This document shows positions 16,604 to 61,802 of a DNA stretch of 64,000 nucleotides, one piece after another; position 1 is the stretch's first letter; the number at the start of each line of letters is the position of its first letter. Location: contig NC_087077.1 in NCBI RefSeq assembly GCF_026151205.1, positions 8,981,983 to 9,045,982 on the forward strand, in the 5' to 3' direction. This DNA comes from Bolinopsis microptera. Its lineage: Eukaryota > Ctenophora > Tentaculata > Lobata > Bolinopsidae. The translations under genes were made by a program, and so were the position numbers. The notes below the pieces were generated by a model, which searched no databases, was not told the origin of the DNA, and saw only the letters and a list, made by a program, of their open reading frames with translations.

Positions 16604-16634
<31 letters not shown>

Positions 16635-19600
16635 GAGGGGTTAGTATGAGAGGTTTGTGTGATAATGAGTGGAAGTGAGAAAGGGCTAGGAAGACTGGGG
16701 AAGTGCTCCCCAGCAAATTAGTTACACGATTATCAGTACTTTCCTACTGGTACAGTACACATAATATGGGGTATTGACTATTTAGGTACAAGTGAGAGGG
16801 GAGAGAGAGAGAGAGAGAGGCTTTTGTTGGTAATGTCACGATAAGTTGTTTTGTCCAGGTGAACGAACAAATGGTCAAGTGTTGAGGACACGGATCTGGT
16901 GCTGTGACGATTGGTTTCGCTACTGAGAGACGACAATGGTTGGAGAACAAAGAGGTGGTAAAGAAATAAAACACAAGAGTTTAGTTAACATATGTAATAT
17001 GTATAATATGGTGACCATTATTCCTGGCCCCACCCCTTCAACACACACGCACAGTTATTGAGTTATATGTTACCATCCTGAGGGTCTGTGTGGTGATTCC
17101 CTCTTCTAGAAGCCTCAAGACTTGAGAGGTACACCTTAACGACCACAAGTGAAATCAAATTAAGTTCCCTGCACAAAATGCAGATATTTTTCAGAAGAAA
17201 TGGAGAGCTCCAATTTCAGGGCCGATTCCAATGACAAGTGTGCTCATAGACAGAAACGGTTTTAAATCGTGCTTTGAGCAGGACACATTTTTGTACCTTG
17301 ATTTTCGTACAAATTTTTATACCTTGATTTTACATAAAGGTAGTACAATTACATGCATAGGCTCGGCAGAGGCACATATTAGGTGCGATGGGTGCGGGAT
17401 CGCACAATTTACTGTTTTCCGCGCATTTCCGCATAATTTATTGTTTTCCGCACACTTCCGCACATTTTGTAATTTTCTGCATATTTCCGCATAATCTAGC
17501 ATTTTCCGCGTAATTTCGCCTAATTTTGAAATTTTCGCGTTAAGATTTTCGAGTGTAAAAACCAAAATATGTTAAAAGTCGGGCCCTTTTAGGACCGTGA
17601 CTCAGGCCCTTTCGGGACCCTGACCCAGGCCCTTTCGGGACCGTGACCCAGGCCCTTTTGGAACTCATACGTAGGCCACGTGACCCAGGCCCTTCCGGGA
17701 CCCTGACCCAGGCCCTTTCGGGACCGTGACCCAACCCTTTTGGAACTCATGCCTAGGCCACGTGACCCAGGCCCTTTCGGGACTGTTACCCAGGCCCTTT
17801 CAGGACCGTGACCTAGGCCCTTTCGGGACCGTGACCCAGGCCGTTATGGAACCCTCGTCGTTACCGTACTTCGATCATACCTGCAGAGTGCAGCCCTTTT
17901 TGTCGATAATGAGCTCTATTCGTTGTAGCGTTGGCTTTATAGTGGGCTTAATGGATCTTGGATCAAATGGTTTACAAGTACTGACAATCAATGCCAACAA
18001 GCGTGTCACATATTTGCGATCACGCATAGGATCTGATCGACTCTATCAAGAGGCGTCTTCAATAACTGTTTCCTGATCTCTACCAGATCAAGTCACTGTT
18101 CTCAGATAACTGAATCTCAATATAGGTTCAATCATGGTCTTAGTAAAGAACTACACCCTCAGTAACACATAAACAGACCTATTTTTGATAAGAGCGGCGG
18201 TTATACGTTTAGAATTTCCAAAGTCTTTCAGAAAATGCAAAAGAAAACCGCATAATTCCCGCACAAATTTCGAAAAAATCGTCGCACATTTGCCGCATAA
18301 TTGGTAAAAATTTACCGCACCTTACCGCACATTTTACCTTTATAGTCGGGTGCGGTACCGCAATTTTTCGATTTTTTTACCGCACCTAATATGTGCCTCT
18401 GAGGCTCGGGGAAGGCTCAAAACCAAAAGTTTGACGTCACAATACAATAAATGGATAATGGTGAATGGTGCATTGCCATTAGCTAGCTAGTGTGGTTAAT
18501 AGTGTGTGTAACAAGGCTCATCAACAATGTACACAGCCCGTCAGTCCATCATCTCTTCTGAACACACTGTAAATTCCACAGTTTGTGGATAAAGATTTGG
18601 TTCTTAAATCGTCCTTAAGGATGTCCGCCAGGGGATCACAGACGAATCCATTGTAGCAGGGGGAGGGGGGGGGGGGGGCCGGGGGGACAACAGGCGACAG
18701 AATCTTTTGTCACAGAGAAGGATTTTACTGGGTGAAGGTCTATTTTTGTAAAGCTTTAAAACATGCTGAACACCTCGCGACCTTTGTTCGTCCCCCATTA
18801 AAACCACATGAAATCTTGGAAGAGAGAGAGTCAAAGAGCTATGTTCATTTGTCCATGGACTTTACCAGATCCCTAACAAAGGCCGTTATTTGCATCTCAA
18901 GAGAGATCTGGATTACGAGAATAGTCTGCTCTGATTGGACAGTTAACAGAATAGCAGCCTGTGATTGGTTGGTCTGGAGCAGAAGGAGGGTAGACAGGGC
19001 GCCATTGGTTGGGATAGGAAAGTATAAACGGAGTGTATTCCGTGTGTATGAGCTCTTGAATCGTGGAGGCAAATGAAGTCATCTGCAATGGTTAGCTCGA
19101 ACCGAGGAAAGCAAATTCAGATCACTTTTTTTACAGCCACGAAATATCTAAAATTTCATCATTTCAATAAATCCTCAGCATGGAAATTACCTTCAACAAT
19201 AAGAAACAGCTGGACAAATAACAGACTGAACAGTAAATTCACGGGCTGGTGAGTTTCAAAGTCAAACAAAAGAAAGCTAAAGTCATAAAGTGAAGCCTCT
19301 AGTCAAACGGATGTAATCTGGTGCCATGACGACGGCAGTGTATACCAACAACATTATGGATTGATTGCAGCGGATTTCATTCCTTAATAACAGTCCATAA
19401 TGTACATACAATGTGATGCTAGATGGCTATTCAGGCTGATAATTGACTCCCTATTGTGAGTATAACATCTGGTCTGTTTGATGTGTAGTAACAGAGCCTG
19501 GTATCATGTTAGTCATCACCAGCCGCCATATTTCCAAATAAAACAGGATATTTCCAAATGAAACAGGATATTTCCACATAAAACAGGATATTTCCACATA

Positions 19601-34920: not shown

Positions 34921-37900
34921 CTGGGGATGGTGAGGTTAATTGAGGCAAATTGAGGCAAATTGATATTAGTCAATTGCAAGTGAGCAGGGAGAATGACGCA
35001 CTTAATCACTTAACCACTTAAAACCGCGAGACTGGCCAGGTGATGTAAAGCATTATTATTCAAGTCACGCTCCCGTATATCCTGTCCACTATCAACTTAT
35101 CAGTGAAATAAGTTTGACTATATTAAGGTGAGTATTACTGTAGTCTGTATTAAAGACTTTTCTATCGTAATTTGACTCACATTCAATGAACTTCTGGTAT
35201 CGCTGAAGAGTCCTGGGAATGTTAACAGTGTAGTAAGATCTGATCTCTTGCTCAAATGCTGGGTGAGGGTAGTTGTACATCTTCACCAGGTGCTGAAATT
35301 AAAATGATAAGTGACGAAACGGATAGAAGATAATTTAGTCCGAACAAAGTATTTTATTAACAATTGCAACAAAAACTTCTACCGATCAAATAACGATTTA
35401 ATTTCACTGCACTTCTGAACAATTCCAACTATGTAATTAGTTACGGTGAACTTTAAAGCAAACCCACATCCAATATTTTGAAGATGACCATTTCGTTATA
35501 AAGTTTGGCGTTATTCTCTCCACTCTGAGTGTCCTTGTACTTTGTGAAACCTGCCTGAAATAAATACACCATCAAAATATTACATATATTACCATTTATG
35601 AGAAGTTAGAGAAAACACTTAGGGAAAGGCGAAAGCTTTAATTGAGATTTAAAAATCACTTAAGGAAAGTGTTTTAAATTTTAGAGTTTCATATTTTCTA
35701 TAGTTTTAGATTGGTCAAATTTCAATATCGTAGCTTCATTCCGTATCATAAACAGTATGCTGTATGAATGTACGCATATTCTTATTGGCACATATAACCG
35801 CAACCGAACGGTGAGCCATAATTGTGATTAGACTTCTAGTAATGACCAAATGAATGCCTCCCCCTTAATAGCCTCCACTGGGATCAACAAAGCAGCCTAA
35901 ATAAGTATAACTCTTATTATCCGTACACATTAGTGTATAATATGCCTCTCATCAAGGCAAAATGGGAGACCATTGACCAGTCTTGGTTGCTTAGTAACAT
36001 GGTAAAATAGTTCGAAACAACCTAATAGAGCTCTTATTTTGTCTGGGATTTGTTTTATCAATTAGGTAAACGTGCCCTTCGTTGTTACAATTAATTAGCT
36101 GGTTAAGCCACGTGCATTAACTGACTACGATAGGTCCGTGTTTAGGGGAATTAATTTAAACAATTAAGATTACTGCACGATAATCAGTTAATTACACGAT
36201 TAGATAATTTAAATAATTGTCTCATCATACTAATTGCGCGATAAAAATAAAGGTAATGAGCAATTACCTCATTATAATAAGGAGTAGAGTTAAGAACAAG
36301 ACTCTGGATAGAAATGAAAAGTTGAAGTAAGTTGGATGTTTTAGTCCACTGTTCTGTTCCTTTACCGGTCCATGTACCGAGTAAGCTTAGACACACCTGG
36401 AAAATACAGAGCGTGTTACTATCACCTGGGGCATGTTTATATGATTAGGATAAATTTAATTTGAAAACATACCTTAATGGGAACGGACAGGACCGTTAAT
36501 AAATTGTCCATGTCATTGATCTAAGATCTCCTGCCTCTGGACAACGGTAAACTATTTCAGTATTTCTTACAATCAGAATCCAGGAACATGACAGCATTTT
36601 CAAACACTAACTCATCATTAAAACCCCGTCAGTACGGGTCAGTACCTTGCCAAGAGGGTAGAGGTTAGGGTTAAGTTTAGTCTGACTGTAAGCCACAAAG
36701 TGGAGGAGAGGAGGGGAGGCACTGTAGGTACTGGGGAGCTGGATATCAAACACGAACAGGACTCCCTCGTAGGGCGTGTCCACTGGACCCTCTATCAGAC
36801 ACGACATTAGATCCTGCGGGTGAGACTCATTCAGTAAGGCATGAAGGTATTAATTCGGTGTCATTTTGGCGGGAAACAAGTATATATATATTTTTTATAA
36901 ACATTATTCGTATCCAATATTTTCGTTCAATGTGCAGGCAAGATAAAATTATGTGTAGTTTAAGTTAGCATTAACATCTCGGCGAAACATTCAGTGTCAA
37001 TCATGCCTGTAAAAAGTTTAAACCCTTAAAGTTTATACTTATAGCAGGATGGCCGAAAGCTGCATCCTGTCCAAACTCTGTTGGCAGGTGGATATTAATG
37101 GCGAACAGTTTGATTGTGCAGGCAGAATTGCTTTGTGCAGGCAACAAGGTTACCAGGTTAAGCTTTTTTCTAAACATGAATTGTCTCTTACCATTCGATC
37201 CTCGTAAGCTCTGACCCAGATGCCATCAGGTAAACTACTGCTGATAAGCTTGATATCCTTTCTAACAGCTGAGAGAAATGCTCGCTGGTAGTTCCCCGGC
37301 TGTGAGTGGAAATAGTAGTTGTGGGAGTCCGGACAGTTCGGAATTGTCTTGAAACTTTGGCTGAAATGAAACTTGAGATTATTCATGAGGTTGACATATT
37401 CAGAAATATTCAATATTGAAAGTTGGATGATTTGGTATCAGTGGTGTAATGGACTATTCCATAATGGCAATGGTAATGATATTGGACAGTAGGCAGTGGA
37501 CGTTAGAGATTAATACAGCGCGAAACTGAAAGTTTCTAATAGTGGACTGCACTGCAGCGCTGTGCAAAGTGTACTGCAAGACTGTTTTATGGTCGAGAAA
37601 TTACCACTCGCTTAATCTAAAGTATGCGCTACATGCAACACAGTACACTGTAGTTTGGATAAAAATACTGTAGTTTCGATAAAACACTGTAGTTTGGATA
37701 TGTATATGCTTTTCGCGACCTGCAGTCACACTAAAAAATATCCCTGAAAACGCCGCTTAATTTGTATATTCACACAGAGCTGGTTTAACAGAATAAAAGC
37801 ATGCTCCATCCCTGTAGGTTAATAGCATTCGATCTTCGAAATTATACCAATGGAATGAACGTTTCCAATGTAATCATCCAGTAGCTTGCACCTAAGCCGT

Positions 37901-40900
37901 GATTTTTGGGTATTTCAGGAAAATTATTTGGTCGAGAAATGTCTACTTGCTCAATCTGAAGTATGCGCTCCATGCTGACAAGTGCTCTAATATGGCTACA
38001 TCTGCTTTTCCCAGTACGGTCACATCAAAGCGTATCCCCAAATAAAACGCCGCTCACTTTCTATCTAAACCACTTAAAACACACAGACCCGGTTTAGCCT
38101 AACAAAAGCCATGATCCATCCCTCATTAGGCTAATTAGTTAGCAGCATGTCGCAGCTTTGCCCATCATTGCAAGGCACAACTCCCCAAATAATAGGAGAA
38201 CACTGAACCTAGATGTGTAATATTCATCAGGCTGCCCCGCAATTAGTTACCATCACTTAGAGGGTGCTGGAGACCCTCGAGGGCGACAACAAACTGCGCG
38301 CGATTAATTGCGGTGTAGTTTGTAGTGTTGTGACTGCAGGTAGTCCGTAGTTGTATATCATATACCACTACAATTCAGACCATGTATAGTGTATATGCCA
38401 CATGTAGCTACCCCCTAAATTGTAGCCAGCACTTTAATTATAGCTCCAACTTCTAAATTGTAGCTAGCTCCTAAATATAGCTCCCTAACAGGAGAGAGGT
38501 CTCGTTATAAGTATTACTTGGCATTAGTTGAACCACAGTGGTGCTCGAGGTTGTTATAATACTATTTAGCGCCGTGGATAATTCATAATGGTTAATAGCC
38601 CCTTGTTTAATGAATATTATGATAATTTTAAAATGAATATTTTATGCTATATAGCGTTATCGTGACATTATTTAGTCGTAGTCTGTACACAATTAAGAGT
38701 TACAATTAACATGGCCCCTGTTGAAGTTAGCCCCAGGGAGCCGGCAGAATATTATATTCTTGGCACACACATTTTTCCATTTTCCACGGTGTTCCTGAAC
38801 AGCTGAGAGCAGGGAGCCATTAGCTAGCAGTTATTGTGACTTTGTATCCTAGTTGAGAGAGATTATCCGAGGTGTGAGATGGCTTTTAGGTTTGGGACCC
38901 GGAAGTTAAGTAGCCTAGCCCTCCCTGAACAATGCCATGCTTCACTTCCGTGTCACGTGACCTCACAAGTGCTTATAATATAACTATGTATGTAACTCCT
39001 TTTTATACTGTCGCTGTGTATAGTGACTATTATATTGATGGTTAAGAATGCTTTGGGAAATCACGTTTGGGAGAAAATGTAGAGAGATCTAGCTCTCATT
39101 TTCCATGTTTTTGCCTCACAGGAGATATTGTGATCTTTTCTAAATATAACTGTAATACATTGATGTAAAGTTTATTTGAATTTTGAAATAAATGTCAATT
39201 AAGCGTGAAACTTTCGCTGGTATTAAACCACCATATTTCCGGTTGGCGTGTTAGTTGTAGTGTAATGTGGATGACAAACATCATTGTAGACTGTAGGAAG
39301 ATGTCAGTGACTGATGTGGAAATACAGTAGGGTTCAACTAGACAAAATATGTCACAGAAAGGGATCAGATATTAATCTCACTTCAATCATTCAATTTCTC
39401 ATTCGAAGGTCGAAGCTTGATGTGCATATGATATGCAAACTAATGGTGTTCTGGCAAATGTGACCGTGGATTTTATACCCACTGTTTCAGCTGATTAGCT
39501 GTTCAAATATTTTTCAGATGCATTTCAACTCAGAGGCCCACCCGCCAGAGGGTTAATCCAAGTCCATTGGCGGAATCTGTATGGCTGTATTTGAGGCATT
39601 TTAGTCTTTTAAGGCACGATTGTCATGTGTTTTATAAAATCCGGTATCTTTCAAGCAAACTGAAATCAAATACAAGAAGAAAATCGATAAAAATAAACTC
39701 AAAACAAAATATCAAGTCTACGATACGGAATGATCATGTGCATGGCTAAGTAAAACTGATAACAAAATTGGATATGGGAATAATCTAATTAATTGTAATA
39801 ATTTAATTAAAGTATCAAGTATAGTACACAAAAACTAAGAAAAAACCGCGCACTCTTTTTTTTCTTACTTTATTTTAACAAAAAACCAAAGCTACTTCTT
39901 ATTTCAATCTGTCAGTGTGACTGAAATTTCTTGACAATCACTTTCTTGACCAGTCGGACACTTCTTTACTAAAGACAGTTGCGGAACATGTGTGGTACTA
40001 AACTTCTGTACCCTCTCACGAATTTGTTGTCTCTCCTCTTCAATGCTTACTTTCTTGTTCAAGAGGAGAACAATCTTTGGTATGAAGATGCAGAGGAGGA
40101 ATGCCGAGGAGGTGACAAATATCACTATAGCCCGTAGTACAGATTGGACCTCTGGAGGAGAGTAAGAGTATCCCGTCAGGAACATGATGGAGCACAGTAG
40201 AACCACAAAGGTGGCACAAAAGATGTTGAGGGATTCCCTGAAATTGTGAGGGAACTGCCTCATCTTGAAAGCAAGGATCAGGGTTATGAGAAATGATAGA
40301 CCTGGTATAACCATTGGAAGCATTAGATTGAGGAGCTTGTCCTCATCACTGGTGCACGCAAGATACCATGGCGTGTGATTTATTTCTTGATACCTTTTAA
40401 AGGTCCAGCTAGTACCATCTCCAGTGAAGAAGTCAATGATAAGAATGATGGCTGTCACTCCCAGGGCAAGAAGATTAATGGCAGTCTGACCTGTTCTTTT
40501 TAGGAACAAACCCAACTTTGGGGCTGTAAAATTTTGGGCAGCCGCGAAAATGACGTACACTTTCATGCATCTATAGAGTAAGTTAACAGATATGAAAGTG
40601 GCAAAAATTATGAAGGAGTAGTATTCAGCAGCGCAGGATATTTTCGAAGGCTTGAGAATTGATGTGTAAGCCACAAGGTAACCAATCAGCAAACTTAACA
40701 GCAACATGTAGAGGTATGCCGGGTCTGAAGCTTTGACGATGGGTCTGTTCTCGTTTCTGAAGATGAGAACACCGAAAAAAATGACCATTGCAACACCAAG
40801 TGGTATGCAAGACGCCCCTACTAAGAAAATGGTTGAATCTGGTCGAATGTAGATTTCTCCCGTCAAAACACAAGCTGTGTGATTTTCAGTAGATGACATG

Positions 40901-43900
40901 GAAGTGTCACATGTTTTGCATACGTTAGTGTCATATTCGGTGCTGTATTGGTTAGCCTTACAAGAATTACAGATCCAACAGCATGGTACATATTGTACAC
41001 TCTCATCAAAAAGTCGGTAGGTGCCAGGCTTGCACGTGTGCGAGCAAGTTTTGTTGTACCCTGGAATGCTCTTCAACAGGTCCTCGTCTGTTACATCTAT
41101 TCGGTCAAAGAATGCTCTTCCTAGCGATGAAAAAGTCTTTGTCTTGGTTCGGTACACCCCAATCTTGTACCCAATATTGACAGTCTTATTAAACATCTTC
41201 ATGAGTATTGTAACATTTTCTTCGAGTCTAACCTCCAATGTTCGGTTCTCGTTCACGATTTCGTTAAACAATTCCGTTTTGTAATCCATCAGACAGTCAC
41301 TCTTAGGTGCCACATTCTTAGCAAGACTGGCATGAAGAGCGTCCAATATCAGCTGAACACCGCCTATCATATAAGGGAGCCAGCTTGATGCTTCGCAATC
41401 CCAAGGCTCGTCATCATCCTTTGGACATCTGTCATTCTGAACATTCTCAAAGATGTCATCGATATAATCTCTTTTGTCACGAAGTCTCCAATCCTTGTTG
41501 AAATATTCCGGAGTTTGCTTTAATTCAGTATTGAGAAGATCTGGCAATGGAAGTATGATAGTATTGTCTCCAGAAGTATTGAGGATTTTTGTGTAATTTA
41601 AGCCATCAAGGTGTCGAAATCTTCCGTTTGATAATCCAAGAATGTAGATCTTATTTCGGAATCCTAGATTACCGACCATCTCTTCAAGCATCGCTGCTGT
41701 AGTTACTCCTGAATTTTGGAGAATAAGTTGAACCTGCGCTGGACTTCCCCCAGTTTCATTGTACGTCTGTTTTATCCTAGGAATGTCAGATACGGATGTA
41801 ACATCAGTTATTCGTCCACATCCTACTTTCTTAACGTAACTGTTGTATATATGCTCTGCCATATCTTTGGAGAATTTATGGTACCAAATGTCCATGTACT
41901 GATAGCCCATCTTTTCTAGGAATCGTATGGTTATTTCAGCCTCGTTGACTTCCGTATCGATCATGGAAAATAGTGTCGGAAACATACCATCATCCATCAA
42001 CTCTCCATCATTGAACAAGTAGACGAATGTGGGAATGTGATAAGAGGTCGTGACACTAGCAGATCTTTTGACAAATGATTTGAAGTCCACTCCAGAAACT
42101 CCAACAACTTTACTGTTGCTAGCCAGTTTGAACGAGGCTCTCGATGTAACAGCTGAGCTCATGCAGCAGTCATATATTTCATAGCCCAGAGTCTTGTTAA
42201 AATCTCTCTTGAACCTTTCATTTTCTCTGTCAATCACCATCCTCAACACAATAGCTTTCTGGATTCTGTATTCTTTCAAATTCTCGTAAGAGCAATACTG
42301 AACTGGGGCACGGGTACCGTTATCATCACTCGTATATTGAAGCTGACCTATCTGGAACATTCCTCCGATGATTAAGTCGCCATCTTTTGCCGCAATGGGG
42401 GTGTCAAGAGGTCTGACATGACAAACTCCTTCTCCTTCATCTGGTGCCCCGTAAACTAGGGTGAGGAGGAATAGAAGAAGTATCATCAGTGACAGAGGTT
42501 TTCTTATCATGAGCTGTAAGTAATGAATTATCATTTAGCAGCTGATACAATTGTTACAAGGCTTATCATAACTTTGTTAATTTGTCAGCAACAAGGGGTA
42601 AAAGACTCGGTATTGTCATGCCTTCAAATTCTAGCACGATTAACTATCAAGGCATTGTTTTGGAAAATTAGGGGTGTGGAACGGATCCCTCTCCCTATTA
42701 TATGGAAGATCCCTGTCCCTATTATGTATACCCTCGAAAAGCTACCTCTGTACATACGTTACTCTAATTTCAATATAAGAGTATGCAATACTTCAAGTGT
42801 CATATGAACATATGAACAATAGCCATTAGCAAGGGAACCAGCAAATAAAACCAAAGGTAACGAGATCATTACACAATACACATATATTTGAGTATTAACC
42901 GTGTTCATCCGACACTCGCATAATTCTATACTAATTTGTTGAAACACCTATATAATATATATTGATGATAAGTGGAAAGATGAATCATTCCATGGAATAG
43001 TCAAAGTTATAGATACTGTAAAACCATTAATTTGGTGTGGTGTGGATTAGATCATTGCTCAAATGCTCGTAAGAGATATGAGATATCTGTCCCTATTATG
43101 AATAGTTTTGAAAAGCTACCACTGTATAATATATGCTATTCTAATTGTATATTTATATGCAATTCTAACTTTATATAAGTTAAGAGTATACAATACTTAT
43201 GAAAAAAGAATGGGCCATCTTTACGCAGACTGCTTTAAAGCGTACTCATGATAATTAATTGAATAGAAGCTACAAGAAAAGATGTTGGTACCTAGCTTGA
43301 AAATATGAAAAATTATGAAAACGCTGAATGTAAATTGCATTGTTCACATTAGTACGCCTTTATTCTTTTATCATCAAAACACGAATCTCTAACATAATGC
43401 TGAATGCTCATTGATTGATCATTATCCTTTCTTAGTTCACCAAAAGAAGTTCACACCCCTGGACATATTATGAAAAATATCCAGGGAGCTAATAAATAAA
43501 AAACAAAGCGAGATCATTATACATAGTCTATCAGACAGTGTTCAACACGCACACAATCCCATACTAATTTATTGAAACCCCTATAATAGGTGGACAGACA
43601 GAACGTTTTATAAAATAGTCAAAGAAATAGGTACTGTAAAACCATCATTTTCGCAGGTAATGTATGCTTTTATTCTTATTTTTTCAGACTTAAAATCAGC
43701 GAAAATATGTGCCGCGAAATTGAGTGCTTCTGTCTAATTTCTGCGTTCAATCATTCGAATTCGATAAAATTTATGCCGTGACAATTTTAGAAATCCGCAG
43801 AAATGAGTGCCCACGAAAATATATGGTTTACAGTAGAACAATACCAATCATCGGTAGAAGACATTCTATAAAATTACATATTACCATGAACAATTGATAT

Positions 43901-46900: not shown

Positions 46901-49900
46901 GCCTGAACTTTGTCCGGCTTGCCTATCTGCCTAACGATGCATAAAACGGTTCATTATCCGATGGATCTTCACGATTAAATTTCATATTAACCCTGCTAAG
47001 GTTTAACCAAATTCATTATACCTAGTCCAGCCTTATTGAACATTTTATAAGTTCATCGAATAATCGCTTTAAGCTAGCTACCAGAGCGGAGAACTAACCC
47101 AAATGGTCAAAATATTCAGAAGTGGTTCAGAAGTGAAAACGAGCAAGACCGAGTATATAAATAGTTGGCCTATCAGCATTCAACACCATATTGCAGCCCA
47201 GAACGACCATTTCCCGAGTTGAACAAGCATGACCCGCGGGGTTGTCCCAAGGCTCAAGCCTTGCTACTTGAATCAAAAAATTAAATGTTAAAATTATACT
47301 TTTAATAATTAATTTAATTCGTAATTTCAAAACCACATGACTGAGTGTGGAAATATTCAACTTTGAAGAGGGAGAAATAACAAGACTAACACTGAAGAAC
47401 AGACGAGACAACACACTAAACCACCACGGTCATGAGTCATTAAACAAATGAAGGTCTAGAACATTAAAAATAAGCGCCGGAAAAAGAACCGCTGACCTGA
47501 TGATACTGGCGTGCTCCTGCATCACGGCCGACAACTCCAAAGGTTCGCACATCTCAACTGGTTCAGGGTTGGAGTAACTTGTCTTGCTGTTTCTGAACCG
47601 CTTCCTTGCTTGGGTGGTGGCTGGCTGCTGTCAATTAGTGGCATTAGTGTGGTTTTGATAATATAGAATTCGAGTAAATATGTATGGAAGCATCATCTTT
47701 TGCTAACAGTTATCGATAATTATGAATCGGTGATCTGTAATTATAATTGCGATCGAAGTTCGGCTAGACGCTAGACACTAGCTGTCTGTTTCGACTAATG
47801 TCCAGAGTTTAATGTACAAACTTAGAAGGCTAATGGAAAATTATGGAGAATGGACAGCGAGGATAGGTCGATATTTTTATCGTCCTATCGATAATTGGAA
47901 GAAAATGATCGGATAAGACTCGAGAACAAATTAATCTCTAGAGAAAAAGTTTTTAACTTACTCCATCCTGAGAGTCGGAAGAAGCTTGTCTGACAAATTC
48001 TCCTCCTTTTTCTAATGTTTCCAAAACTTTCTTCTTCTCTTCTTCCAGTGATTTCTAGAATAGTATAGGCAACTTGTAAGGTAAAAGTAAGTAAACGTGT
48101 GCAACAGAGGGTTTCATCTCATGATCTTACACCCAATAACGTGGAACTATAGTTGAATGTTAACTAATTAAGTATTGATCCTAATCAGCAGGGACTTGAG
48201 ATCAACATGGAATGAGTCAAGATAAATCTCAGAAATAACAAACTTTTTGACTATCTAAACCTGATCTTGGGGCTCAGTGAGGACATTATCACACTCCACG
48301 ATAGGAGCTTCAGACTCTGCGATTAAAGAATCATACTCTACAACGACAGCATCAGAACTGCCTTTCTCTGCCAGTTGATCTGGTCCGGAATTCAGTTCGC
48401 CGGACACTGCGGACAGTACTTCCTTACCAAAAAAATCGGCCCCCAAACATGGTATTCCCGTTTGTGGGTTTGTCAGAGCAGGATCTGCAGACGATGCGTC
48501 TTGAAACTCGTCTCCGGAGGGCTCCTTACCATCGTCGGCAGTTTTCTCTGCCGTTTCTTTATCCTCACTGTGTTGACAAATTTAATAACTCACCGACAAA
48601 ATCACAACCATACAAAATTTGTTGTAATTGTGTTAATCTGTGTTCTGTAAGCAGCTTTTTAATGAAGGGCTGCTGAATTGTAAATGTTTGTTTGAAAATT
48701 GCTGTTAGTTCCAGTCAAGTAAAAATGCTGTCATGTTAGTCAAAGTGCTGTGAGCTGTTGGTAGTGTATTGTATGCGGCCCTAGCTGCAGTGCTTCACCC
48801 CTCATTCTTATACAATGTCTCACCAAACACATAACTCTGTATACTAAATTCACGATTCTCAATAAAATTGAATAAAAACACTTCTCAGTCAATAGCACAC
48901 TGTCAAAAACACTTCACGATCATACATCACATGTTCAACACACTAGTTCATATTATCCACACAGTGCAACAGTCGGCGGGCATTTTTAACTCTATTCTAC
49001 AGCATCGTGCAATGTGCATTTCATGTACCCAGTCGGTTACAGGAATCAAGTGTGGGGTTGTTTTGATTTTAAAAAGCCCTTAGGTAGCAGTCATCAATCT
49101 GTAGGAAGGCGGCACAGATTTTCGACCTTACTACCATGCCACTTTATCTCAAAGTAGGTGCTCACTGCTCTCACCACTGCACAACCCACTGAGTCCCGGA
49201 ATGATAACTTACACCTGCAATTACATAAGATTCCAAGTATAACCATACCACACAGCACACGTCACTAATTAATTCACCAGTCATCGGCTGACAATTCAAT
49301 GCTACATTTCTTACTGGACATTGCAAGACGGACGCAGCCACGCCGATTAACGACATCACTCAAAATCACATTCTTATCTAAAGCACACTCTTATCAAAAG
49401 CACACTCGTATCTAAAGCACACACATCCCCATATATCTGAGCTAGCAACTACTCACTCCTCAGACCCATCACTGTCAGTCGTGACCCACTCGTCTGAGTT
49501 TAACCAGTCACCGTCATCACTGTCATCAAACATGCCCATCTCCTCGTAAACATGGGCCGCGTTGTCGGGGTTCACTGTTGTTATGGTCTTGTCAGCCCAT
49601 TGTGTCAGTAGCTGAAATAGGAGGAGAATATCAGAGGGGAACGTACTGATCAGAGAAAAAGTCACTATCAGCCGTCATCCAGCTGCTGTCATCATCATCT
49701 GCCTCCGCGTAGTCTTCTTCAGATATGTCCTCGTAGTCAGTGTCAGACGAGGCTAGGTGGACGCACTTATCGGGGGTTATAGCGGATATTGCTCCGTCCG
49801 TCCAGTGAACAAGTAACTGTGGGGATGGTGTTTATTTATATTTAATTGATTGATAAACAGTACAAGGCCGTCTCATGATTTAGTGGTTCAGTCCCAGGCA

Positions 49901-52900
49901 TTGAACATCTATGACCATTTTACACTCGCTTTTTAAAAAACAATATATTGTATGTATTGAGGGGTAGATGTGAACTTATCGTGGGATTACATGTATACAC
50001 ATAATGTATACTCATAATATCTATTACAGAAAAGCAAATTGAGTATTAGCTATCAAAACATTATGTTTATCTGCCTCCTGTATTGAACCGAAGTTGGCCC
50101 CAGCCTCTATTCCCTATTTCCCCTCACAACAGTGTCACATCAAACTGTACACTGCTTTTGAAGGCTTGTTTAACAGGAGAATCCTCTCAAAATCCTGACG
50201 ACGGACTTCTTTCCGAACACTACGAAATAAACAAGCTCGAAGCCGAAAAATGGTGTAAATCTATCTTAAGTCCGTAAGCTCCCGACCAAGTTTCACCAGC
50301 CCTCCAATAATATCTCGACAGTCTTGTTTTAAAATTTGGAGTATCGGAGCAAAGCCCGCAAAGTTGGCCCGTCATCATTCATGCTAAATCAATACAATGC
50401 ATGTTCGTTTGATGTAAATAACGAACGCGCGTGGAGGGTTGGCTGGCAATGGAAATCCAAACCTTTTTGCAATGCGCGTGCCGTAGACTCATACTGACTA
50501 ACTGACTCTAAAATTAGCATTGGCCGCGTTTCCACCCTCCATATTTATATTGTGACTGGATCGTGGATGCGTGTGATCGACTGGATATGTGTGACTGTCT
50601 ATTGATGCAGGTAAAGGTGTTCAATGTTAAGCTCCAAACAACTTCATATTAATGGCTCCTTTAAAAACGGCAGAGGAGGTCCACAAGATTTCAGACGAAT
50701 AATTTGATTGAAAACACGTAGGATATTTTTACGTCTTCATAAAGTATGGTCAACATTCTTCAAAAAATTAATGCTTGAAAAATCAACAACATTCCAAGGT
50801 CTTTTTTAATCAATATTATTAGGTTGAAAAACCATAGAAGAACTACATGCTGATCGTAAGAGGCATGCATGCAAAATACGACACAGAAATAAATAATTAC
50901 TTAAATTCATTAAATCCATTACCTTTCCAGTTTCAGTAACGCAAATGATTTGACCGATGGAGCTGTGAGAACACTCCACTAAGCACACAATGATGTCCAT
51001 GGGGTTAAAATCATACTTTTGGTTGTATTCCAGGGAGTATACACTGACTTCTTCCTCTCGCTGAAAGAATACATTAAAAGTCAATACAATATTGATACAA
51101 CACTAATACAACACTATATACAACATAGAGCACACTATATAATACATATATATAATACATCCTCATGCCCAATCATTACATTATTCTAAAATTAGCACCT
51201 ATACAATAGGCAACTCCAGCATAATTTGACCAAAACTGTCGTGTACAAATTCTGGACTCATGCCAAGAGCCAAGACATGAATAAGCCCTGCTACGAGCAC
51301 TGAGCTGTACGAAAATAATTACATCACTTGACACTGTGTACGACTGCAGTAATTGGTTGCTATTTATGTAATTTGCCGTGCATACTACACTGGCTACTGT
51401 CAACAAACCCCTGGTAAAATATAACAGCAACATAAAAAGTATTGCAATTCGATTAAGTCATTGAGTATATATTTGGACACCCACACATGGCTAGAATGTA
51501 ATGTTGTTTTATTTTTCATAACTAATGATAAGGTGCTACAACACAACTAAGTACCCTGAATTAGAAATCGACAACTATTGCAAAGCAGTGGCGTAACGTT
51601 GCCTGTAGGCGCCCCCCCCCCCCCCCCGCCGAAAAAGCGCCCCCCTGTTGGCGCCCCCTCCCTTTTTGGCGCCCCTCCTTAAAATTGAACAAATTAGGTG
51701 ATTTTAGTGGATATGCCGGTAAAATCTCTAAAAAAAGTGCGTTGCTAGAGCAAAACGCGCAGTTTTGCTAGTACCTCAGTTAAGATTTTCAAAATTGTCT
51801 CACATTCAAACGACGATTTGGTGCCCCCCTATGATGGCGTCGCCCAGCGGGGACCTTCGTTACGCCACTGTTACTAACATTAATAATTAGAGAAGTACGA
51901 GTCTGTGCCACTTTGATATGTTATAAACAGTTACCTTGTCGCTATCAAGCCAGTGAACAGTACAGGTCCTATCCTTAGAGCTATACTTGGAAACCACCGC
52001 TAGCTCGTCCTTGTTTCCCACTTTATTAACAAAGTACCCAGGCATGTGGGCGTGGTCGTCTAAGTGGTCGATCTGGTTTAGTTCGGTACACGGTACATCT
52101 TCCTGGCTACCATCCTCCCACAATACCTGATAGGGGTTATTTTAGGTCAGATGACATTATTGTTTAATTCTCCATGAAAACTCGACATTTTTGGGAGTAA
52201 TGGCGATGACACCTCTTAATTCTTAATCATTGAAAATATTCCTCCATGCCCTGTGATTTTACCGATCGAATTCCAACGTTTTATAAATGCACTCATGAAG
52301 ACTTTTGTTGACAAAAAATGATAGAAATAATCACGAACCACCAAATTTCCCCAAATTTTAAAAGTATGTTATCATGTCAACACGATACGAGTCTCAGGGT
52401 GTGGTGAGAAACCATGCTCTTTGTGAGAACAATTATCGAACAATTATTCATGAAAGTCAGCACTTAATCATATTTGAGGCATTTACAAATTACCAGCAGA
52501 ATCAGATAATTAGATGAAATTTTGATAAAGTTATGGTATGTACATATTGTGTCCCGTATTTAGATTATCGATACCTTCAAGTGATAAGATTCGCAAAGTG
52601 ATAAATTCCTTATTAGATTGGTAAATGTCTAATCAAAACTTAGACTCTAGACTCTAGAGACATGACAATTCTTAAGCATCTACTCAATATTAGTGAAAAA
52701 TCCCGTTTGCGTGTCATTTACGAATGACTCAATCAAGAAAACCGTATAGTAAGAGTTATGGGTGATTATGGGACTGGTTATTTTCGGTATAGTGCCATCA
52801 TAACTCTGAGGAAGTAAAATAACTTTGAAGTTCTTTGAAATTGGCCAACGGAAAATAGACTACTACTACTACTACTAGGTCGGAACTAAGTCCAATCTAC

Positions 52901-54292
52901 GCCAAATAATCCTCTTCATATATCCCTGTCGCGCATCGGGGTTCGCAGTTCCTCTTTAGAGTTTGTCCCAAATTCCTTCAGTAACATAGACAAATAGCTT
53001 TGTCTCGGTCGGCCTCTTATCATTTAAGATACCTCGCATAAATACGAGGTCTAATTTGATCACGACACTTAGCTGCCGAGAAAAAGAGGAATTTCTCACT
53101 GCTTAACCTGTAATCAAATTACCATGCTTGTTCATTGTTATTTACTTTCCGATTAGGGAGGTTTTTTAGGAAGTTCAATCTATACTTGGATATCTCATAT
53201 CACTTTAATGAAGTTAAGCTTGACTGTAGTTCCTTAATCTTCGGTGGTGATGTTTCATAATTTTTTTTATAGATGCATGTTGATCGCTTAGGTCGTCGGG
53301 TTTATCACATACGTTATTGTGATCTTTTGCAACCAAATCGAAATGTGTTCAGTTGACTCACTATGAAACATCTGATAGCATTACTGCGTATTATCTTCTG
53401 TCTGCTTGTATAATTTGGACAATTAAGAAATTGAAATGTTTCAGCATTAATATGGTACAATTATGATAATTTTAAATGCAACCACTTTCCTTCCTGTTTT
53501 TAGCATAACTTTTCATTGCTTATATTTTTACCCAGTTGCCCAATACAGGGTATTGTTTTTATAGCGTTATGCATCTAAAGATGCAGTAAATTAACCTGAG
53601 TTTGGCGTTTAGCATATTCTTGATGTAATCACATCAGTCATCATTAATTGCATCCTAACTGGTTTACTTGTTTTCAATTGTTCAATAAAAAGTAATAACA
53701 AATGTAATGATTACATGGCATCAAAACATGTTCAATATATTCTGTTTAGTACATAGTATGCTTACAGTTGATAGAGTATAATATATGATACATTATATAA
53801 TTGCTGTTCAAGAGAAGCAGGGTTGAGTGTACATCACAACTATTGTACAAGCTAATCAACCATAATCCGAACTCTCAACAAAATCACCTGATTACTAGCC
53901 CACCCAAACTCTATTCTAACAGCACACAGTAACATGTATACATATTACATATCACGTGACCCCAGTTTCTGGTTATTATACTGGATATTATACAGTATTA
54001 TAGCTAGTGTATAACCAGGAAATAGTTATTACAGATCAATGATCCTCGCGAAATATGTACAGATCTTGGATTCAAGGTTTTCAATACCTCAATTCTCATA
54101 ACACAGCAGACCAAAATTTAGAGCCGCGGTAAAACAAAAAAATTGTTAGCTGCAGTAATGATTTAACAATACACATTTGGAGATCCTGTATAAATAGTAA
54201 ATACCTTTCCGGTGTACGTAGCGTCGACAATCTCTACCAAGTACTGCCCCTTAACTTCTATCGGCCCTTTGGGAGATATGTTGCTGCACCAC
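34481..54292 (-). CDS. UBE2O: UBE2O-like hybrid E2/E3 ubiquitin-conjugating enzyme, C-terminal half (5' partial)
   Basis: UBE2O binds substrates through SH3/Tudor-like conserved regions and ubiquitinates them with its own UBC domain. Exons in transcript order: 54205-54292, 51935-52126, 50923-51060, 49457-49611 (or 49647-49816), 48261-48567, 47962-48054, 47497-47627, 37192-37360, 36646-36813, 36268-36396, 35468-35554, 35139-35292, 34481-34920. All boundaries are GT-AG and all phases fit; these exons give about 750 codons with the stop at 34481. Landmarks are V-L-W-E-D-G-S near the start, D-H-L-D-D-H with P-G-Y-F-V, E-E-E-V-S-V-Y, an acidic W-A-D-K segment, a Lys/Glu-rich coiled stretch (K-S-L-E-E-E-K-K-K), then S-L-P-D-G-I-W-V-R and the UBC fold. 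The catalytic region is [19 protein letters not shown]. The N-terminal half is not in the window up to 57.8 kb and probably lies past the transposons to the right. Confidence 0.9.
36268..37360 (-). CDS. UBE2O: UBE2O UBC catalytic core exons
   Basis: Three exons (37192-37360, 36646-36813, 36268-36396) encode the heart of the E2 domain. The first ends A-Y-E-D-R-M, the second starts [10 protein letters not shown] and contains [14 protein letters not shown], and the third begins with V-C, where the Cys codon at 36391-36393 is the expected thioester cysteine in the G-K-V-C-x-S-L-L-G-T-W motif. The third exon ends T-P-Y-Y-N-E, followed by A-G-F in 35468-35554. This order is as in human UBE2O. All key residues of the family motif are intact. 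Confidence 0.93.
37361..39903. other. UBE2O intron, part 3' of the nested receptor gene
   Basis: The intron sequence downstream of the GPCR gene. No coding exon, long tandem repeat or inverted-repeat element is recognised. A minus-strand AATAAA at 39869-39874 is the likely poly(A) signal of the receptor gene. Confidence 0.5.
39869..39874 (-). terminator. Poly(A) signal AATAAA of the class C GPCR gene
   Basis: The plus-strand tttatt reads AATAAA on the minus strand, about 30 nt after the receptor stop codon, implying a very short 3' UTR. Confidence 0.5.
39904..42534 (-). CDS. Intronless class C GPCR (mGluR/CaSR-like), 876 aa
   Basis: A single uninterrupted frame has the full class C architecture. 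A hydrophobic signal peptide is near residues 9-30 ([10 protein letters not shown]; Met9 or Met17 are also possible starts). A Venus-flytrap ligand-binding domain covers about 40-480, with [10 protein letters not shown] and S-Y-H-I-P-T as typical elements. A Cys-rich NCD3G-type segment lies at about 490-555 ([14 protein letters not shown]). Seven membrane segments cover about 565-830, and a cytoplasmic tail of about 45 residues follows. Many N-x-S/T sites are present in the ectodomain. Such receptors sense amino acids, calcium or related small ligands and signal through G proteins at the plasma membrane; the ligand here cannot be told. The gene sits inside the 10.1-kb UBE2O intron 37361-47496 on the same strand. 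Lack of introns in a family that usually has them suggests retroposition or a lineage of intronless copies. Confidence 0.93.
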   Translation of the reverse strand: MIIHYLQLMIRKPLSLMILLLFLLTLVYGAPDEGEGVCHVRPLDTPIAAKDGDLIIGGMFQIGQLQYTSDDNGTRAPVQYCSYENLKEYRIQKAIVLRMVIDRENERFKRDFNKTLGYEIYDCCMSSAVTSRASFKLASNSKVVGVSGVDFKSFVKRSASVTTSYHIPTFVYLFNDGELMDDGMFPTLFSMIDTEVNEAEITIRFLEKMGYQYMDIWYHKFSKDMAEHIYNSYVKKVGCGRITDVTSVSDIPRIKQTYNETGGSPAQVQLILQNSGVTTAAMLEEMVGNLGFRNKIYILGLSNGRFRHLDGLNYTKILNTSGDNTIILPLPDLLNTELKQTPEYFNKDWRLRDKRDYIDDIFENVQNDRCPKDDDEPWDCEASSWLPYMIGGVQLILDALHASLAKNVAPKSDCLMDYKTELFNEIVNENRTLEVRLEENVTILMKMFNKTVNIGYKIGVYRTKTKTFSSLGRAFFDRIDVTDEDLLKSIPGYNKTCSHTCKPGTYRLFDESVQYVPCCWICNSCKANQYSTEYDTNVCKTCDTSMSSTENHTACVLTGEIYIRPDSTIFLVGASCIPLGVAMVIFFGVLIFRNENRPIVKASDPAYLYMLLLSLLIGYLVAYTSILKPSKISCAAEYYSFIIFATFISVNLLYRCMKVYVIFAAAQNFTAPKLGLFLKRTGQTAINLLALGVTAIILIIDFFTGDGTSWTFKRYQEINHTPWYLACTSDEDKLLNLMLPMVIPGLSFLITLILAFKMRQFPHNFRESLNIFCATFVVLLCSIMFLTGYSYSPPEVQSVLRAIVIFVTSSAFLLCIFIPKIVLLLNKKVSIEEERQQIRERVQKFSTTHVPQLSLVKKCPTGQESDCQEISVTLTD
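42690..43650. repeat. Diverged tandem duplication upstream of the GPCR gene
   Basis: Two blocks share ordered landmarks: gtccctattatg, then gaaaagctacc, then agtatgcaatactt/agtatacaatactt, then gcgagatcatta/acgagatcattacac, then atactaattt.ttgaaac, then tactgtaaaaccat. Block 1 is about 42690-43030 and block 2 about 43078-43650. Both end at the left terminus of the same MITE, which is complete only in block 2. Confidence 0.7.
43634..43833. mobile_element. 200-bp MITE with TA target
   Basis: The left end ctgtaaaaccatcattttcg and right end cgaaaatatatggtttacag are imperfect inverted repeats flanked by TA on both sides (43632-43633, 43834-43835). It resembles Tc1/mariner-derived MITEs. A bare left end of the same family lies at 43016. 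Confidence 0.75.
49457..49611 (-). CDS. UBE2O: UBE2O alternative exon A (SH3/Tudor-like strand plus acidic tail)
   Basis: The exon starts at phase 0 after CTATTTCAG with [16 protein letters not shown]. It ends in an acidic stretch with E-W-V-T-T-D-S-D, with a GTGAGT donor at phase 2. Human UBE2O has one segment of this type (W-A-D-N-S-K followed by an acidic region). Joined to 48567 it reads into E-D-K-E-T without a break. See exon B for the alternative relation. Confidence 0.85.
49647..49816 (-). CDS. UBE2O: UBE2O alternative exon B, duplicate of exon A
   Basis: The exon starts at phase 0 after CATCCCCACAG with [16 protein letters not shown]. It ends in an acidic stretch with S-W-M-T-A-D-S-D, with a GTACGT donor at phase 2. 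It matches exon A in length (170 vs 155 bp), phases, opening W-x-D motif and closing W-x-T-x-D-S-D motif. The gap to exon A is 35 bp. Splicing B to A would give C-A-C T-A-C T-G-A, an immediate stop, so the two should be alternatives. Confidence 0.78.
51586..51870. mobile_element. Small hAT-like non-autonomous element
   Basis: Perfect 13-bp terminal inverted repeats (cagtggcgtaacg and its complement) enclose 285 bp that begins with a C-rich run (about 51610-51627) and repeated ggcgcccc motifs. CAGTGGCGTA ends are common in hAT-derived elements, but the flanking 8-bp sequences do not match, so the class is not proven. It lies in a UBE2O intron. Confidence 0.65.
52127..54204. other. UBE2O intron, 2.1 kb
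   Basis: AT-rich intron with no exon, tandem array or element that I can recognise. Confidence 0.5.
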
Positions 54293-57624: not shown

Positions 57625-57842
57625 TAGATTCACATTTTTAGCACATTTGGTACTGAAACTTCCAGTTTTTATAGAGTCCCTTTATTTCTGGATACGTGGC
57701 TAGTATCTAGATAACGAATGTGGTGGCCCCGTTTGGTATCAATAATCACTCAAAATGAATTTTTATTCTCACTTTGGATTAATAGTTCTCCTTTATATAT
57801 AAGGTTTTTTTTGAGGATGGTGTGTGACTGTAACGGGTCCGC

Positions 57843-59157
57843 ATGACTGCCAAAGTCAGTACGTTTAACGCCTCGAGGAAGATCGCAGGATTCCTAGTCT
57901 ACGCTACTCTTTTCATCATGGCTACGACACTCAATTTTGGGACATGGAATGTTTGCGGTCTATCGACCACATACAGGCAACACTTCGTTGCAGAGGACAT
58001 TGACAGATATAACTTAGACATTTTAGCACTTCAGGAGACCAAGACACGTGAATACTTGGAAACAACACTCCCTGGACATCATCGATTGTTTTTGTTTGAT
58101 CAGAGACACGATAGACACGGTGGACTTGGGTTTATTGTTAACAAGCGTTTTTTGGAATGTATAGTATCGCATCATCAGATCAGTGACAGAGTTGTTTATA
58201 TGGACTTTAAATTAAGTGCTAAAAGGGTGGATCAACCACCTTGTCATATCAGAATTGTTAATTGTTACAGCCCTACGAATCCCAAGTCAGTTCAGAACCC
58301 CCGATTAGCGACCCAATTTTACGAGGAGCTACTCGAGGCTATCAGTGTTCCTGCTAGATTTGAAGTATGGATGTTAGGCGACTTTAATGCCAAACTTGGC
58401 AAAAGAAGCCCTGTTGATGTAGAAAATGGTTTACATGTGAATATTGGTAGACATGGTGTTGGGAGGAGGAATGAAAATGGTGAAAGGTTGCTACACTTTC
58501 TCACTGCTAATGGCCTGTTTGCTGCCAACACTTCATTCTCCCATAGCAGCAGACACATTACCACACGGACTGGTTGGATTCGGGATCGAGCAACCAGGAA
58601 AAGTAAACCTTATTTCCAACAGATTGACTTCATACTCTGCAAGTCCAGAAGCAAGGCACTGCTAACTGATGCCAGGTCATATGCAGGTACAAAGCACCGC
58701 AGTGACCATAAACTTGTTGTTGCCAAGGCAGATTTTTCGCAGCGCTTCAAGTTGTACAAGGAAAGCAGAGCATTTCAAAAGACTTATAACACAACAACCT
58801 TGATTGGAAGCAAACAAGTTCAACAACAATATCAGCAAGAACTTCGTCAGAAACTTGAGCAAACTGTATCATATCCTGACTTTACCTCCAACAACACGGA
58901 ACAGCAATTTGATATGCTTTTTGGTGAAGTTAAAGAAGCTGCTGTTTCCACTGTGGGTTTTCGTGAGCCACAGCGAAAGAGGAATCATTCCTCTGACAGT
59001 CAAGTTGTTAGCATGTCTGAAGAAAGGAAACAACTTTTACAACAACTGAACAACAACGAATACAGAGACAGGACAGCTCTCAGAGCTAAAATCAACAGGC
59101 TCTCAAACGACATTACTAAACGGTTGAAAACATTGAGAGTTGAGTTAGCAAACAGCC
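57843..59157 (+). pseudogene. LINE ORF, 5' part: AP-type endonuclease
   Basis: This is the N-terminal part of the LINE polyprotein. The endonuclease motifs are F-G-T-W-N-V-C-G-L, L-A-L-Q-E-T-K, M-L-G-D-F-N-A-K-L-G and H-R-S-D-H-K-L-V-V, which include the usual catalytic Asn, Glu, Asp and His positions of AP endonucleases. A Gln-rich stretch follows. The open frame continues into the insertion and stops at 59187-59189 after a foreign tail (S-S-V-R-K-G-A-L-F). Confidence 0.85.
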
Positions 59158-59536
59158 CGAGTAGTGTTCGAAAGGGCGCCCTGTTTTGACATACCTCCTG
59201 AGCCGGTACTCATTTCCTCTCTGAGCTAGCTAGTGTATATCAGTTTCTTGTTGGTGTTTTGTCTGTGTTTGTTTGTCCGTAGTAGGAATTTACTGTAACT
59301 TTGGAGACTGGGCGCAGTAATGTCCCAGAGGGTTTGTAACATCATGGATGCTGACTAAGCTTACCTGATCCTCTCCAACTTGTATTAGTACACTACTTCA
59401 TTCACACCAGTCATTTCACTACATTAAACTGATTGAGGTTATGCCCTTTGTACATGCTGAAGCGATATGCTATGATGAGTGGAATATGAGTTAGGATCAG
59501 TTTGGTCCGTTTCATGGCAAAAACATTTATTGATTT
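59154..59536 (+). repeat. Left direct repeat of the LINE insertion
   Basis: 383-bp repeat beginning agcccgagtagtgttcg and ending catttattgattt; its first four and last two or so bases overlap with the target sequence by microhomology. It carries a 10-bp palindrome agggcgccct near its start. Confidence 0.9.
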
Positions 59537-60065
59537 TGTATTAACCCTTCGGGGCTTGCGTGACCCTTATCATAGAACTGGTTTTCAGGACTGGCAGTCT
59601 GACCTATTGCCTTGCCAGCATAGGTGTACTTATATAGTTTTGCATGGTTCAGTTGCATAGTAGTGTCCGAATTGCACTGTTTCTAGCCCGAGTAGTGTTC
59701 GAAAGGGCGCCCTGTTTTGACATACCTCCTGAGCCGGTACTCATTTCCTCTCTGAGCTAGCTAGTGTATATCAGTTTCTTGTTGGTGTTTTGTCTGTGTT
59801 TGTTTGTCCGTAGTAGGAATTTACTGTAACTTTGGAGACTGGGCGCAGTAATGTCCCAGAGGGTTTGTAACATCATGGATGCTGACTAAGCTTACCTGAT
59901 CCTCTCCAACTTGTATTAGTACACTACTTCATTCACACCAGTCATTTCACTACATTAAACTGATTGAGGTTATGCCCTTTGTACATGCTGAAGCGATATG
60001 CTATGATGAGTGGAATATGAGTTAGGATCAGTTTGGTCCGTTTCATGGCAAAAACATTTATTGAT
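59158..60065 (+). mobile_element. Insertion with 383-bp direct repeats and 13-bp TSD
   Basis: A 908-bp insertion interrupts the LINE. Flanking copies of ttagcaaacagcc lie at 59145-59157 and 60066-60078. The insert consists of a repeat (59154-59536), a 148-bp core (59537-59684) and the same repeat again (59685-60067), at a constant offset of 531 bp and with no difference that I can see. The repeats lack TG/CA ends and the duplication is much longer than the 4-6 bp of LTR elements. It has no coding capacity. Strand is given relative to the LINE only. Confidence 0.85.
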
Positions 60066-60067
60066 TT
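59685..60067 (+). repeat. Right direct repeat of the LINE insertion
   Basis: Copy of the left repeat, identical by eye over 383 bp, offset by 531 bp. Confidence 0.9.
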
Positions 60068-60078
60068 AGCAAACAGCC

Positions 60079-61802
60079 TAGCTGACTCTATAGCCACCAT
60101 AGACGAAGGACGGAGAATGTTTGAAGCTGCTCGTCAACTATCAGGCAAACAGAAAACGGGTGCAGGCTCTGTGTCTGTTTTCAACACTGACAACCAACTG
60201 GTAGATAATGAACGAGACAAGGCTGAAATCATTCGCCAGTACTTCGAAGAACACTACACTGGACCTGACAGTGAACCACCACTAGAACCGTTCACAGGTA
60301 AACCTAGGCCCCTTCAAAACCCCATTACAGCGTTTGAAGTTGAGCTTGCGGCCAAGAAACTCAAGAACGGTAAAGCTGTTGGACCAGATGGGATCCCAAA
60401 CGAATTTCTCAAACACTCTCCTGAAATCTTTTTTTCCACATTTGCACAACTTACTAATCGATCCTTTGAGCTCCATGAACATGTACCTTCTTTCACAGAG
60501 GGATACCTTACTCCGCTCCAAAAACCTGGAAAGCCACTAGGCCCCCCTAAGAGTTTGCGCCCACTTTGCCTACTAAACGGTACTAGAAAGATATTGTCCA
60601 TGATAGTCTTAAAGCGCATCCAAAGGCAAGTATCTCAGTACACTGGTCCTTGGCAGAATGCCTATAAACCTGGCCATAGTTGTGCAAATATCGTTTGGAC
60701 CCAGCGAATACTAGTGTCAGTTGTCAAGGAAAAACGCTGGTCTCTTCATAAGATGGGCATTGACATGTCCTCTGCTTTCGATACCATAAAGAGGTCGGTA
60801 TTACTTGACATTTTAGCTGATGCTGGTTGTAGTGAGGACGACATTCGACTGGTAAGGTATTTGCTCGCAAATACTAAACTGAAGATCAAAGTGAACTCAA
60901 CAATATAGGGAGAGTTTATTGTCACGATTGGAGCTTTTCAAGGCGACAGTTTGTCTGGAAACTTGTTCACTCTATATCTGGCAGCAGCACTTTACCACCT
61001 GCGTGCTGTTATGTCCTATCTAAGACCTAACCCTCCCATAGCTGAGAATCTGTTACCCCTCGAGTGGGAGTACGCAGATGATGTTGATTTTACTGATGAG
61101 GATAAAAGCAATTTGGAGTCTTTGTTGCCAATATGTAAAGAAATATTGGAAGAGTGGAATCTTTTTGTCAATGAGTCAAAAACCGAGTTCACCCACTTCT
61201 ATCTGGCCAGCAAGAACGAGGTTGATAACAAAGGAGAGAAACTCAGAGGTAGAGAACCTTGGAGGTCATCTATCTCTTTAGGCTCTAAGTTGTGTAGCAT
61301 CGAAGATGTCAAGAGACGATGTATACTTGCTAACATTGCTTTTCAGAACTACAAAAAAGTCTGGGAACAAGGTAGACGTATACCCTTGAAGATTCGACTC
61401 AAGATATATGAAGCACAAGTTGTTTCATTACTGATGTATAATTGCAACAGTTGGGCAACATCTAAACAACTCCTTCAAAAACTTGATGTCTGCCACAGGA
61501 ATCATCTCCGTACGATCATCGGCATGACCTACCCTAATGTCATACGAAATGTGACTCTATACAAACGCTGCGAAGTTGTTCCACTAAGTGAGCGTGTTGC
61601 TCGTGCACGGTGGAGAATGCTCGGTCACATCCTCCGCAGTGATAATAACTCACCTGCCCAGCTTGCCTTACATTTTGCTGTAGAGAGTCAGAGTTTGATG
61701 AGAGGTAGAGTCGGACGACACCAGTCAAACTTGTTAAAAACTATTTTGAACGATTTTTTTATTAAATACTTTTCAAATTTTACAGAGTACAGCAATAGAT
61801 GA
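60079..61802 (+). pseudogene. LINE ORF, 3' part: reverse transcriptase with in-frame stop
   Basis: RT motifs are K-A-V-G-P-D-G-I-P-N-E, L-R-P-L-C-L-L-N-G, G-I-D-M-S-S-A-F-D, G-A-F-Q-G-D-S-L-S-G and Y-A-D-D near 61071. A TAG at 60906-60908 cuts the frame between the Asp motif and the Y-A-D-D motif. After the RT come a likely Cys-containing region and R-W-R-M-L-G-H-I-L-R, seen at the end of many LINE ORFs. The last residues (from about 61742) do not look like the family and coincide with an inverted repeat. Confidence 0.82.

Follow-up and report, generated by a model that had tools for sequence, protein, structure and literature searches.

The question raised by this locus is whether two similar neighbouring exons, on the minus strand of the window (the whole 64,000-nt stretch of Bolinopsis microptera DNA analysed here), are joined in one transcript or used as alternatives, and which part of which protein they encode. 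On its domain content and alignments, the gene that carries them is UBE2O. Its UBC part scored 76.4 bits against PF00179, and the best PDB matches of this part were E3-independent E2 / UBE2O chains, with E-values down to 2.5e-63. An SH3-B (PF23043) and an SH3-C (PF23044) domain, both above cut-off, precede the UBC domain. A two-isoform profile of the modelled exons was collinear with residues 545-1145 of the 1292-residue UBE2O chain 9mc4_B (E 8.5e-75), which we take to be human UBE2O, and the alignment spanned the SH3-B, SH3-C, acidic and UBC parts as well as a GKVCxSLLGTW stretch. Cys 1040 of 9mc4_B sits in this stretch, and the active-site Cys of the B. microptera UBC domain is present, aligned with it. 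This position agrees with C1040, the catalytic cysteine of human UBE2O (PMC12835413). The modelled part of the gene comprises exons from 54292 down to 35181 on the minus strand, and its features are the following:

54205..54292, minus strand: UBE2O upstream exon, open frame with AG/GT borders, aligned from its residue 18 onward with human UBE2O from residue 545
51935..52126, minus strand: exon with most of SH3-B (PF23043 SH3-B_UBE2O, 26-30 bits, cut-off 22)
50923..51060, minus strand: shared exon preceding the pair, with the end of SH3-B and the first half of SH3-C, phase 0 end, donor GTAATG (PF23044 17.7 bits alone)
49647..49816, minus strand: exon A, second half of SH3-C and acidic tail, phase 0 in, phase 2 out (PF23044 with the shared exon 37.9 bits, profile 1-61)
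49612..49646, minus strand: 35-nt gap with the A donor, CTGAT (its single yUnAy match), a pyrimidine tract and the B acceptor, as read from the sequence
49457..49611, minus strand: exon B, alternative second half of SH3-C and acidic tail, phase 0 in, phase 2 out (PF23044 with the shared exon 38.3 bits, profile 1-67)
48261..48567, minus strand: shared exon following the pair, phase 2 entry, open frame with AG/GT borders, donor score -3.8
47962..48054, minus strand: exon KSLEEEKKK..., coiled-coil-like by eye, within the collinear alignment to human UBE2O
47497..47627, minus strand: exon preceding the long intron (gene model)
37192..37360, minus strand: UBC (E2) exon 1 (gene model)
36646..36813, minus strand: UBC exon 2, with a PF00179 match at the same place in the genome
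36268..36396, minus strand: UBC exon 3, carrying the Cys that pairs with Cys 1040 in the alignment to 9mc4_B
35468..35554, minus strand: UBC exon 4 (gene model)
35181..35292, minus strand: exon 3' of the UBC domain (gene model)

Exon A (49816-49647, 170 nt, LLVHWTD...WMTADSD...) and exon B (49611-49457, 155 nt, LLTQWAD...WVTTDSD...) are each 2 mod 3 in length, preceded by AG, followed by GT and open in frame. The sequence-only reading had described two similar neighbours that begin with L-L-x-x-W-x-D, end with W-x-T-x-D-S-D, and share a phase 0 start and a phase 2 end; the coordinates, the motifs and the phases were all confirmed. Local alignment of A and B gave a BLOSUM62 score of 87, while shuffled sequences averaged 31.3 (sd 5.9) and none of 5000 shuffles reached 87; judged by these shuffles, the similarity is not a product of chance. 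The first 27 residues alone scored 53 (0/5000 shuffles), while the acidic tails alone were much weaker, with a score of 44 that 215 of 5000 shuffles matched, and the W-x-T-x-D-S-D ending therefore weighs less than the SH3 half. Eight of the first 22 residues are identical in A and B, including the W, the D at the second position after it and the PD, and from residue 23 onward Asp or Glu make up 15 of 34 residues in A and 12 of 29 in B, with three S/T-x-x-D/E sites in A and one in B.

Over the first 23 aligned codons of A and B, pS was 0.71 (12.17/17.25) and pN 0.40 (20.83/51.75), a contrast that, with 23 codons only, was borderline (Fisher p 0.049 on rounded counts). Synonymous change is near saturation, so the duplication is old, and the lower pN suggests that both copies have been kept as protein. 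When the window was queried with A, B was the second-best place (30.0 bits, E 7e-5), the next place after it contained a stop (20.4 bits, E 0.22), and no third copy of the exon was found in the window. A 170-residue protein query against the 264.65-Mb genome (232 contigs) gave four matches, all in the UBE2O locus, with no further copy, although this was a loose first look that a more diverged copy could escape: with B in the query, A itself was recovered only at E 0.136. The SH3-C profile gave no match across the whole genome and likewise none in 14 control genomes, an uninformative result since the domain is split by introns. A UBE2O query against viral contigs returned six pattern matches and no relative. 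A search with GFP gave no match, and none in controls either.

The two exons contribute to the same domain. Pfam annotates PF23044 (SH3-C_UBE2O) with "ubiquitin binding" and sets its cut-off at 21 bits. The upstream exons without A or B scored 17.7 bits, below this cut-off, and covered profile positions 1-38, the first half only; adding A to the shared exon raised the score to 37.9 bits (positions 1-61), and adding B raised it to 38.3 bits (positions 1-67). Because either exon completes SH3-C to about 38 bits, a gain of about 20, the two are alternative second halves of one domain, and by the profile they encode the equivalent part of SH3-C. The variable part had been described earlier as acidic and SH3/Tudor-like; the acidic tail is present, and the second portion of that description is refined here to the second half of SH3-C (PF23044). 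PDB searches with the SH3 region alone, performed separately for the isoforms with A and with B, gave chance matches only (E 0.25 or worse).

Human UBE2O was expected to have a single segment of this type, and the alignment to 9mc4_B bore this out, with one such segment in the human chain as against two alternative exons in the B. microptera gene. Against the human segment, A scored 55 (21/3000 shuffles) and B 57 (3/3000 shuffles). Since the A-B score of 87 exceeds both, the comparison suggests that the duplication took place after this lineage split from the human lineage.

We then consider what the reading frame allows. The gap between the exons is exactly 35 nt (GTACGTTCCCCTCTGATATTCTCCTCCTATTTCAG) and runs from GTACGT to TTTCAG, just as had been reported from the letters alone. 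When A is joined to B, the third codon from the join (with the junction codon as the first) is TGA, which also upholds the earlier claim of a stop on joining. Retention of the gap exposes an in-frame TGA inside it, and skipping of both exons leads to an immediate TGA. Because joining, gap retention and double skipping each lead to a stop, a full-length protein would, given these borders, need exactly one of the two exons.

The gap itself would probably also be unfavourable to splicing. Its single yUnAy match, CTGAT, places a putative branch-site A at nt 16, with 19 nt after it, and the predicted donor-to-branch distance is therefore nt 16 of 35, as compared with a published steric limit of about 50 nt (PMC7969005). 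Within the modelled gene, the 11 remaining intron intervals measure 175-10136 nt, and the 13 introns estimated at other E2-family loci extend from about 144 to 15255 nt, so that none of these 24 is shorter than about 144 nt. The 13 estimates come from the 24 of 41 E2-family pieces that paired as neighbouring exons by position and profile range, the other 17, including UBE2O's own, being omitted; one of the pieces used (C7:8357995-8358303), with two TAA and about 102 nt longer than its profile range, may itself hold an intron of about 100 nt, which is not among the 13 estimates. Since splicing of 43-nt introns has been documented for some human cases (PMC4463651), removal of a 35-nt intron is improbable yet possible.

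Taken together, the homology of the neighbours, their identical phases, their equal fit to one domain half, their frame incompatibility and a gap far below the length of the other introns examined support the proposal of the sequence-only reading, and A and B are quite probably mutually exclusive exons, derived long ago from a single UBE2O exon by tandem duplication. In any one transcript, the shared exon 51060-50923 would be spliced to A or to B, and the chosen exon to the one that starts at 48567. U1 on the A donor and U2 on the B branch site presumably could not both assemble within 35 nt, which would block A-B splicing, and any leaky A-B joining would lead to a stop and probably to nonsense-mediated decay.

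The strength of the splice sites bears on which exon would be chosen, and on the alternatives. Scored with generic weight matrices, which are not specific to the B. microptera genome, exon A had an acceptor of 1.2 and a donor of -1.5, and exon B an acceptor of 5.6 and a donor of 2.4; the scoring omitted the acceptor of one exon (F) and exons I, J and K of the gene model. The B acceptor was the strongest of the nine scored in the gene. On the strand, 18% of the 3962 GT sites in the window scored at least as well as the A donor, and 9% of the 3422 AG sites matched the A acceptor. Because its sites are stronger than those of A, B is likely to be the default, and A would be under positive regulation and need a regulator.

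The weakness of the A sites, with eight of the nine other scored donors stronger than its own, is a pattern expected also of a rarely used or decaying exon, and B could accordingly be constitutive, with A a relic or a very rarely used duplicate. We consider this unlikely: exon A has an uninterrupted frame of 56 codons, AG/GT borders and the correct phases, like B it raises the SH3-C profile score by about 20 bits, and near-saturated synonymous divergence with a less diverged protein is unexpected for a freely drifting copy. Its acceptor is stronger than five of the eight other acceptors scored, and the donor of the following exon (-3.8) is weaker than the A donor.

The remaining readings have A and B joined in one transcript. 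The early stop produced by direct joining could serve as an off-switch, with double-exon transcripts degraded and UBE2O output lowered, and reads joining the exons are known for some frame-incompatible exclusive clusters (PMC5740500); the branch-like A at nt 16, far under the threshold of about 50 nt, and the length of the 24 other introns speak against such joining, and we regard this as a very improbable explanation. We give even less weight to translation of both exons in tandem through alternative in-frame splice sites, which would yield one and a half SH3-C domains. In all, 25 GT-AG combinations would retain portions of both exons in frame, and tandem use is compatible with the profile, because the hypothetical joined A+B peptide scores 45 bits in total on SH3-C, above either isoform, with its best stretch in A. 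However, the in-frame donor closest to the end of A, TAC/gttccc (49642), which the sequence-only reading had named, scored -10.3, a value equalled or exceeded by 92% of the 3962 minus-strand GT sites in the window, and would leave a 31-nt intron, while the best-scoring combination (donor 49766 with acceptor 49645, a 121-nt intron) loses the acidic tail of A and turns part of the gap into coding sequence. Moreover, a second half without a first half would probably not complete a domain.

Mutually exclusive use of A and B would have precedents in other genes. In alpha-tropomyosin, studied by Smith and Nadal-Ginard in 1989, exclusive choice is said to be enforced through an unusual branch point location, with the branch point reportedly far from the 3' splice site and in a longer intron. 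This distant branch point sets it apart from the UBE2O gap, where everything lies within 35 nt and the 19 nt past the branch-like A are an ordinary spacing. OGDH exons 4a and 4b are tandem duplicates, like A and B, and mutually exclusive, the choice being enforced by branch points 25-41 nt from the upstream donor (PMC7969005); their intron is 118-131 nt long in birds and mammals and its branch points are mapped, whereas the UBE2O gap totals 35 nt and its branch site is predicted. Among the human mutually exclusive clusters of Hatje et al. (2017, PMC5740500), 377 (60%) include exons whose length is not a multiple of three, and for 57 (9%) steric interference is possible. These clusters are neighbouring, similar and in the same frame, as are A and B, but they are backed by junction reads, while the UBE2O pair is predicted from genomic sequence. 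The candidate combines frame incompatibility of the kind considered in that source with a putative steric obstacle (by the predicted branch site). A and B differ in length by 15 nt, and one published prediction of mutually exclusive exons allows a difference of 60 nt, in steps of three (PMC5740500).

The mechanism is already known, and the literature searched, which leaves out most subscription papers, suggests that UBE2O is a new candidate gene for it: the accessible texts yielded no report of exclusive or duplicated UBE2O exons. One of them, PMC8990255, holds a list of splicing types together with Ube2o methylation.

The CR1 and CR2 regions of human UBE2O serve in substrate binding and in restraint of activity (PMC12835413), and SH3-C has been suggested to bind ubiquitinated cargo (PMC12554184). 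We infer that the choice between A and B would alter the handling of ubiquitin or substrate; through SH3-C and the acidic segment, the two proteins would probably deal differently with ubiquitin, with substrate or with the enzyme's own restraint. If this is true, an enzyme that selects its substrates as well as tagging them would gain a built-in, selectable version of a non-catalytic module, and the A/B pair would serve as a natural experiment on the role of SH3-C. The 35-nt gap would likewise be a compact and simple system in which to test steric exclusion.

Within the intron that follows B, an open frame at 49213-49097 on the minus strand (...LPTD, then a stop) was considered as a third alternative and rejected: it had no Pfam match, and its scores against A, B, the human segment and the SH3-B exon were 14-17, with at least 2071 of 3000 shuffles doing as well. 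This frame has a fair acceptor (2.9) and a compatible phase 2 with a stop following, and may be an alternative last exon or a chance occurrence.

Two overlapping TGCATG hexamers lie at 50864-50873 on the minus strand, 50-59 nt past the donor of the shared exon; this is presumably an Rbfox-type motif. Since TGCATG occurs less often than expected in the window as a whole (21 observed against 37 expected), we claim no regulator for this pair. Elsewhere in the window, open frames at 4299-4565 and 16387-16743 (minus strand) contain CCCH zinc-finger-like stretches, which we take to resemble muscleblind, a splicing regulator. No Rfam family was found in the window.

The long UBE2O intron (47497 to 37360, 10136 nt) contains, nested on the same strand and apparently intronless, one continuous open frame of 876 residues for a class C G-protein-coupled receptor (39904-42534, minus strand), which scored 122 bits for 7tm_3, 26.3 bits for ANF_receptor, just above cut-off, and 31.3 bits for NCD3G, below cut-off. 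The plus strand at 57834-60908, which lies upstream of the UBE2O exons found, carries fragments of a non-LTR retrotransposon with endonuclease (PF03372) and reverse transcriptase (PF00078) frames. Just past the right end of the window, two adjoining transporter-like genes, presumably of the organic cation transporter style, lie on the plus strand at 1209-2488 and 6970-8302 of L009.
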